Below the pieces are notes generated by a model. It saw only the letters and a list, made by a program, of their open reading frames with translations. It did no database searches and was not told the origin of the DNA. A stretch of DNA of 64,000 bases from Methanolobus tindarius DSM 2278 (GTDB lineage: Archaea > Halobacteriota > Methanosarcinia > Methanosarcinales > Methanosarcinaceae), in contig NZ_AZAJ01000001.1 of the NCBI RefSeq assembly GCF_000504205.1, positions 1,276,879 through 1,340,878 on the forward strand, given 5' to 3'. A program made the position numbers and the translations under genes. Below are positions 18,768-57,894 of this stretch, piece by piece (position 1 is the first letter of the stretch; every line of letters starts with the position of its first letter).

Positions 18768-18853
18768 TCCCAGAGAACGATAATTCAAAAATAGTAATTT
18801 CTGCTGTAAATATTGGTAAAATTTAGATGGAATCTTTTATTTAAAAAATAGAA

Positions 18854-18876
18854 AATGAAGGTTTTAAACCTTCATT
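18854..18876. terminator. bidirectional terminator palindrome
   Basis: An 11-bp inverted repeat (18854-18864 with 18866-18876, core GAAGGTTTTAAACCTTC) lies between the convergent fasciclin and giant surface-protein genes. T-rich sequence follows on the plus strand and the minus strand is also T-rich beyond it. Confidence 0.55.
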
Positions 18877-18882
18877 CTTTCA

Positions 18883-46454: not shown

Positions 46455-46593
46455 ACAGGATTTGAGAACATAGTTACAATATATAGTATTTTTGATTTTG
46501 TCTGAAAATATGAAATTTATATTTTTAAAAGATTGAAATGAATGACAGGAGACATTTAAAATTAAAATAGTGTCAGTATTTTAATTAATAAAG

Positions 46594-46601
46594 TATTTAT
46601 A
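46594..46601 (+). promoter_or_regulatory. TATA box of the candidate small RNA
   Basis: TATTTATA is centred near 46597, predicting transcription start at about 46621-46624. That is exactly where the 5' strand of the terminal RNA helix begins. Confidence 0.55.
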
Positions 46602-46620
46602 GGGACATCAATATGTAGGT

Positions 46621-46748
46621 GAAAGAGGAATCTCCGTCATCACATCATTCCCCTCTGATGCATTGATTCTTTTAATGTATCATACCCCAAACTTCACCCA
46701 AACCATCATTATGCGAGGTTCCTCATTTCTTTTCACAAATTCTTTTTT
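46621..46748 (+). ncRNA. candidate structured small RNA
   Basis: The 5' ten nucleotides GAAAGAGGAA (46621-46630) can pair with TTCCTCATTTC (46719-46729) with a single bulged A, closing the molecule. Inside, a 9-bp helix with one G-U pair joins 46656-46664 to 46674-46682. The unpaired parts are C-rich (TCATTCCCCTC, TACCCCAAACTTCACCCAAA), so they could bind purine-rich ribosome-binding sites. T-rich sequence ending in a six-T run at 46743-46748 could terminate it. There is no ORF. I do not recognise an Rfam family. Promoter position, helix boundary and terminator agree, but expression is inferred. Confidence 0.5.
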
Positions 46749-46878
46749 ATGTATGAGTATATTCTTTCCATTTAAAATTCCCATAGGCTACGCAAGGAAT
46801 ATGGACATATAGTAACTGCACCTGAAACTGAAATCAATGCTATGGCATAGCTACATCGCAGAATTAGAAATAGAATGC

Positions 46879-46903
46879 TTCTGTGATTCCGGGAACCACA
46901 GAA
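46879..46903. terminator. strong hairpin downstream of purP
   Basis: A 10-bp stem with one G-U pair (46879-46888 with 46894-46903) around a 5-nt loop lies about 34 nt after the purP stop. T-rich sequence follows on both strands, more strongly on the plus strand (ACTTTTATTTTTGG), so it may end transcripts from either side. Confidence 0.5.
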
Positions 46904-46936
46904 TATTAAGACTTTTATTTTTGGAGAATGAAATGT

Positions 46937-48004
46937 TTATGATAAAATCTTGTCAAGTTGTCCCATGGAACTTGCAAGTTTTATTTCCTGAGCGATTCTC
47001 TTACCGGTTGAAAGATTTGGTTCAACAAGATCAGAATAAGGAGATCCTGCAAGGTAAATGTTTGTACCTGCAACTATACGTGCTGATATTTCAAAGACCT
47101 TGATCTCAAGTTTGTCCGTGACAACTGTCTCCAGGCAGAAAGGACCGATCATACCGCCAAACAGTTCAAGTGACTGCTCAACAACCCTTTCTCCCAGATT
47201 GAATATCTTTGGGAGAAGTGATTCCCTGGCAACAAGCGGAACATTTCCGGTAACAACATAAGTAGGAATAATTTCAGCCTCTTCAAGCTCTTTTGGAGAA
47301 CCAAGCCTGAAAATCTCGTCTGCATTGGACTCGACCCTGCGGTCCATGCTGAGCATCTCAAGGATACCTGTACTGAGTTTGTAGCCTTCTTCCCTCAGTG
47401 GTGAATAGAAGAAATGAAGATAATACCTTGTTCCTACAATGAATTCCTGTATCGTGAATTTCTCATTGGGATCGATATGTTCCTGGAATTCTTCATAGTT
47501 CTTGGCGATAAAGAAACCACGGCCGCCTTTTGCACCATGATATTTTACCATTACTGGGCCATCTATTTCCTGTGGTTTTACTACCCTTGGCATTTCAATT
47601 CCTGCGCCTTCAAGCCACTCACGTTCCATTTCCCTGTCGGACTCCCACTCGAGAACTTCCCTGTTACCAAAAGTTGGGATTGCAAGTTCAGCAAAAGCCT
47701 CTCCTCCCATATATTCCACAAATGAACCATGTGGGATAACAATAGCATTCTTTGCGCGTAGCTCAGCAAGAATATCCGGGATTTCCTTGTAGCTTCCAAC
47801 TACAATGAATTCATCCGGTTTTGCAAGAGGGAAAGCATCGTAGAATCTTGGAGGCTCTTTTACACAGATACCTATGGTCCTGAAACCTTCCTGTCTTGCA
47901 CCATAGAATATTTGAAGACTGGAATGAGAACAAACAGTGGCAATGCTCAGATTGTCCTGGTCATAATTCTCAACGATTTCCATTATTTCTTCTTTAGTAA
48001 TCAT
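46937..48004 (-). CDS. purP: formate-dependent FAICAR synthetase
   Basis: PurP is an ATP-grasp ligase that uses formate and ATP to formylate AICAR in archaeal purine synthesis, replacing the folate-dependent PurH step. The N-terminal YDQDNLSIATVCSHSSLQIF, the substrate loop VIPHGSFVEYMGG, the ATP-grasp core VKYHGAKGGRGFFIAKNY and the metal-binding FEISARIVAGTNIY are characteristic. Length (355) is normal. The ATG at 48004 is followed by MITKEEIMEIVENYD. Monocistronic. Confidence 0.92.
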   Translation of the reverse strand: MITKEEIMEIVENYDQDNLSIATVCSHSSLQIFYGARQEGFRTIGICVKEPPRFYDAFPLAKPDEFIVVGSYKEIPDILAELRAKNAIVIPHGSFVEYMGGEAFAELAIPTFGNREVLEWESDREMEREWLEGAGIEMPRVVKPQEIDGPVMVKYHGAKGGRGFFIAKNYEEFQEHIDPNEKFTIQEFIVGTRYYLHFFYSPLREEGYKLSTGILEMLSMDRRVESNADEIFRLGSPKELEEAEIIPTYVVTGNVPLVARESLLPKIFNLGERVVEQSLELFGGMIGPFCLETVVTDKLEIKVFEISARIVAGTNIYLAGSPYSDLVEPNLSTGKRIAQEIKLASSMGQLDKILS

Positions 48005-57786: not shown

Positions 57787-57894
57787 TCCCGCCTCCCAGA
57801 CTCGAACCGGGGACATCGCGGTGCCTGCGCGTAATGTGACCATGCACATGAATCAAACTACAGCCGCGCACTCTACCAACTGAGTTAAAGCGGG
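57787..57894 (-). tRNA. tRNA-Tyr (anticodon GTA) with a 35-nt intron
   Basis: The mature tRNA has acceptor CCCGCTT/AGGCGGG, with the C1-G72 pair typical of archaeal tRNA-Tyr, discriminator A, and T arm CCCGG-TTCGAGT-CTGGG. The anticodon stem CGCGG/CCGCG is interrupted after position 37 by an intron at 57823-57857. Exon 1 is 57858-57894 (37 nt) and exon 2 is 57787-57822 (36 nt). Removal would use the tRNA splicing endonuclease at the bulge-helix-bulge formed across the junction. Confidence 0.92.

Follow-up and report, generated by a model that had tools for sequence, protein, structure and literature searches.

A small RNA gene lies on the forward strand of the window (the whole 64,000-nucleotide stretch of Methanolobus tindarius DSM 2278 DNA analysed here) at 46594–46735, promoter included, and would specify an RNA of 103–110 nt. 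That the locus is a genuine structured RNA gene is nearly certain; it represents a new family within a known kind of RNA. The initial annotation had proposed a novel small RNA that has a promoter of its own and a closed structure, and this is borne out by conservation among relatives, covariation, a near-fixed distance to the promoter and the lack of an Rfam match. The core of about 107 nt (46623–46729, forward strand) is supported by BLAST, by covariance models R1 and R2, and by a fold z-score of -4.8.

The gene would be transcribed from a TATA box, TATTTATA, at 46594–46601 on the forward strand, which follows an A-rich BRE-like stretch and is about 29 nt upstream of the RNA. The 5′ end is probably at 46623 ± 3, in keeping with the earlier prediction of a TATA box and a start near 46621. 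In nearly all relatives the core is preceded by a TATA-like box that begins 26–31 nt upstream, about 28 nt in distant members, and at locus L061 the motif TTATATG is at a roughly equivalent position. Two promoters have an inverted repeat between the TATA box and the start that may be an operator, CCCTAC-N6-GTAGGG at locus L051 and CAACCTA-N3-TAGGTTG at L061. An operator common to the family was rejected, as these are the only two of 29 members with a clear inverted repeat, and the NrpR operator (consensus GGWA-N6-TWCC) is absent from all 29 promoters inspected. The 3′ end is probably within 46725–46748 (forward strand), a U-rich region predicted to be the termination zone, and most members have a U-rich stretch after the closing helix. 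The T-run at 46743–46748 had been put forward as the end; the U-rich zone stands, but because a U-rich tract at 46725–46735 starts immediately 3′ of the closing helix, the RNA may end there instead.

The two ends of the RNA pair in a closing helix of 10 bp with no bulge, formed by GAGGAAUCUC (46625–46634, forward strand) and GAGGUUCCUC (46715–46724, forward strand), and both strands covary among relatives. Pairing of the ends was correctly anticipated, but its placement was slightly off, and relatives do not conserve the proposed GAAA/UUUC extension with its bulged A. Inside it is a hairpin at 46656–46682 (forward strand), exactly where it had been placed, with 46656–46666 pairing with 46672–46682 across a 5-nt loop; this is 11 bp in M. 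tindarius rather than the 9 bp first given. The forward strand folds far more stably than shuffled sequences (z -4.45 for 46618–46748 and -4.8 for 46623–46735), the reverse strand is ordinary by the same comparison (z -0.5), and the forward strands of relatives give z-scores from -1.6 to -5.7.

Covariation was measured on a covariance-model alignment (A5), which was used in place of a MAFFT alignment of all members that misplaced the 5′ ends of the g11 group. Standard pairs make up 91.8% of the A5 cells, and compensatory changes on both sides occur in 11 of the 22 pairs (27 such cells). None of 500 shuffles reaches the observed value on any of five measures, and pairing falls to 36–57% when the partners are slid by one to three columns. 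Because A5 leans towards structure, an alignment-free check was added in which the 5′ and 3′ ends of each RNA were folded as a duplex, and the closing helix re-formed with at least 10 bp in all 29 members tested, built from differing bases. Examples are AGAGGAA..CCUGCAU/AUGCAGG.UUCCUCU in the psychrophilus group, GCGAGGUA.UCCCA/UGGGAUGCCUCG in genus g14, and AGAGGAG.CCUGCAUC/GAUGCAGG.CUCCUCU in genome G047. In the main clade there is covariation in the internal hairpin too, with double changes in six of nine modelled pairs among relatives; in the psychrophilus group this hairpin is either weaker or of another form.

These features bear on two further explanations, both of which we consider very improbable. 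One is that the locus is a mobile or DNA-level inverted repeat, such as a transposon end or an operator, with the inverted repeats at its ends as the attraction; this sits poorly with a single copy per genome, mostly at an equivalent place, with a TATA box at a near-fixed distance, with the G-U pairs and strand-specific fold excess of the main clade, and with covariation of the internal hairpin. The other is a short peptide gene with the frame ATG TAT CAT, MYHTPNFTQTIIM and onwards. That frame is open in many main-clade members, but it is frameshifted at three loci (L052, L053 and L054), missing at a fourth (L055) and variable in its end, and the conserved part has almost no synonymous changes, the pairs covarying instead.

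BLAST found the RNA in 17 Methanolobus genomes. A first covariance model, built from 16 of these, added distant members in Methanolobus and other genera, and synteny added one more, G047. The second model (R2, 27 members), searched over 186 Methanosarcinales genomes, gave matches in 34, of which 33 were kept after removal of a spurious match in G080. The RNA is thus present once in each of 33 of the 186 genomes and spans four genera of Methanosarcinaceae: Methanolobus (23 of 27 genomes), g2 (two), g11 (four; presumably Methanomethylovorans, with genome G065 fitting M. hollandica) and g14 (four). Genome G044 appears to be Methanolobus psychrophilus R15. Weak matches in G080, G066 (contig C51), G104, G006, G086, G017 and G084 were discarded, being repeats or having no promoter, structure or synteny to match. 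When 30 further genomes of the family, including genus g13 (which we take to be Methanosarcina), were searched less strictly, no credible match emerged; whatever R2 matched among the Methanosarcina genomes searched was spurious, and there was no match in a plasmid collection. Within the main clade the RNA core is 0.90–0.99 identical to that of the window; the corresponding values, leaving out loci with unalignable flanks (L044 and L049), are 0.56–0.90 for the upstream intergenic DNA and 0.71–0.86 for herA.

Rfam 15 scans of both the window and the gap containing the RNA, at default and relaxed settings, gave nothing above cut-off, and the best match to the region (E 0.28) is far below its own cut-off; the absence of a match at gathering score agrees with the original failure to place the RNA in a known family. 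Two tRNA calls elsewhere in the window differ between programs. A 108-nt tRNA at 57787–57894 on the reverse strand is reported by Rfam and absent from the ARAGORN list, and its length suggests an intron-containing tRNA, whereas a 68-nt tRNA-Phe (anticodon aaa) called by ARAGORN at 18815–18882 on the forward strand does not reach the Rfam cut-off and is probably a false call.

The RNA is within a 482-bp gap (46455–46936) flanked by two genes on the reverse strand: a divergent HerA-like ATPase gene (DUF87, Pfam PF01935; 45198–46454), which is also its neighbour in most relatives, and a purP-like gene (DUF1246/DUF1297; 46937–48004). As first described, the gap has no long ORF of its own; a listed 88-aa ORF at 46837–47103 mostly overlaps purP on the opposite strand. 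Most relatives share the order herA, RNA, a convergent FAD oxidoreductase gene and purP, and there are informative departures. In g14 and g2, herA does not lie directly beside the RNA. The oxidoreductase gene is missing in M. tindarius (where purP is consequently the next neighbour), G059 and G053 and is truncated in G065, and the RNA is kept in all four; in G041, G055 and G069 herA adjoins the oxidoreductase gene and the RNA is absent. The RNA is therefore independent of that gene and, since several relatives have no RNA in the matching slot, it is dispensable. An alternative in which it regulates the convergent oxidoreductase gene in cis through overlapping 3′ ends would fit its position at or beside the 3′ end of that gene in most relatives. 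We think this improbable, given the independent losses of the gene and of the RNA, and the conserved loops fall outside the overlap.

Two other observations concern the purP side of the gap. The segment 46731–46936 resembles the remnant of a FAD-dependent oxidoreductase gene that has been lost here and that in relatives sits between the RNA and purP; aligned locally to the region of two relatives, it scores 49, compared with a shuffled maximum of 41–44, and a third relative gives no signal. Just past the stop codon of the reverse-strand purP gene, at 46878–46907, there is an inverted repeat, TTCTGTGATTCC/GGGAACCACAGAA, which recurs in relatives, where changes in one arm are matched in the other, and is possibly a purP 3′ hairpin or terminator.

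Between the closing helix and the hairpin are two C-rich, almost G-free loops, S1 (46635–46655) and S2 (TACCCCAAACTTCACCCAAAC, 46683–46703), both on the forward strand. S1 is conserved, and together with the first hairpin bases contains CATCATTCCCCTC, an exact complement of the ribosome-binding-site-plus-start sequence GAGGGGAATGATG. S2 is nearly invariant in the main Methanolobus clade and carries UUCACCC, which is near the 16S anti-Shine-Dalgarno sequence UCACCUCC. The loops differ between subclades yet stay C-rich and G-poor; across all members, C accounts for 38% of unpaired positions and G for 2%, a composition suggesting loops that stay open and can pair with G-rich RNA. From the sequence and structure comparisons we propose, with about an even chance of being right in the whole, a trans-acting antisense sRNA with C-rich anti-RBS loops. 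Its 5′ and 3′ ends would pair as the closing helix, with the central hairpin dividing the interior so that both loops remain single-stranded; the loops would then pair in trans with G-rich stretches of mRNAs, probably ribosome-binding sites, and alter the translation or stability of those mRNAs. The sequence features of S1 and S2 make pairing with ribosome-binding sites the likeliest mode. A broader version, in which the RNA is a global antisense regulator of methylotrophic Methanosarcinaceae and the two loops form a two-pronged anti-Shine-Dalgarno device on several mRNAs, we put forward as a doubtful extension.

The results of the target searches are weak or negative. Against the 57 predicted ribosome-binding sites of the window, S1 binds with a mean of -8.45 kcal/mol; shuffled loops average -7.62 ± 0.61 (p 0.08). 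S2 has no such excess (p 0.93). Upstream of ATG, S2-type sites are no commoner than in a reversed-pattern control; S1-type matches number about 151 (about 14 being the RNA gene itself) against 46 in the control. In the M. tindarius genome there are six non-self S1-type matches, only one of them at a start codon. The search for a near-complete complement of S2 found only the RNA gene itself, and the tests of S1 and S2 sites revealed no conserved mRNA target. The earlier suggestion of a trans-acting, RBS-pairing regulator is plausible from the conserved, C-rich and G-free loops, and two candidate targets failed when compared across species. The first is a glycogen-synthase-like gene (named from its sequence; the stretch given to Pfam had no match) with an S1-type site at its start, which was rejected as not specific because the site also occurs in G055, a genome that has no RNA. 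The second is phoU, with the sequence AGGTTTGGGTGAAG and variants at the pstB/phoU junction in six genomes; this site follows from the C-terminal codons of pstB, and near relatives with an identical S2 loop carry TTCGGGTGA instead. Given the loop differences, the RNA may have different targets in different subclades or bind them loosely.

The lack of a conserved mRNA target would also suit a structured RNA that binds a protein or the ribosome (a sponge, a scaffold or a ribosome-associated RNA), its C-rich loops being recognised by protein and not by mRNAs, and S2 is almost invariant over its whole length in the main clade, further than a short seed would require. We regard this as unlikely, but as a more serious contender than cis regulation: the loops diverge between subclades while staying C-rich and G-poor, as expected for pairing with G-rich RNA, and the M. 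tindarius genome has no Ro60 (TROVE, PF05731), the protein that a Y-RNA-like role would call for. Few archaeal sRNAs have a family definition backed by covariation, and this one offers a ready family model: its structure is clear, its promoter place fixed and its neighbourhood conserved, and it has been lost naturally in some genomes and varies across four genera. It is a tractable case for sRNA function in methylotrophic methanogens outside Methanosarcina.

Among known archaeal RNAs, sRNA132 of Haloferax volcanii is intergenic and is reported to target a phosphate transport operon (PMC6560208); the new RNA differs in that a phosphate-related target, phoU, was rejected. Closer comparisons are found in Methanosarcina mazei, where the intergenic sRNA41 and sRNA162 are reported to act on mRNAs, sRNA41 masking ribosome-binding sites in polycistronic mRNAs, and where sRNA154, described as highly conserved in Methanosarcina, has a loop with an anti-RBS sequence (PMC5867862); these modes of action are a precedent for the proposed mechanism. 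Like sRNA154, the new RNA is an intergenic methanogen RNA with stem-loops. Its S1 loop complements RBS-like sequence, with the weak statistics given above (p 0.08). Unlike sRNA154, it did not turn up in any Methanosarcina genome searched, and its promoters have no NrpR-type operator. The same genome distribution sets it apart from sRNA41 and sRNA162, and all three are unlikely relatives. It shares two traits of trans-acting archaeal intergenic sRNAs in general, being non-coding and having its own promoter in an intergenic region. Within its own genus, a study of M. psychrophilus R15 records 195 intergenic transcription starts for sRNAs (PMC5378194). The homologue of the new RNA in G044 is on the reverse strand (G044:C1:1876722–1876827), and the RNA may already be among those 195 transcripts.
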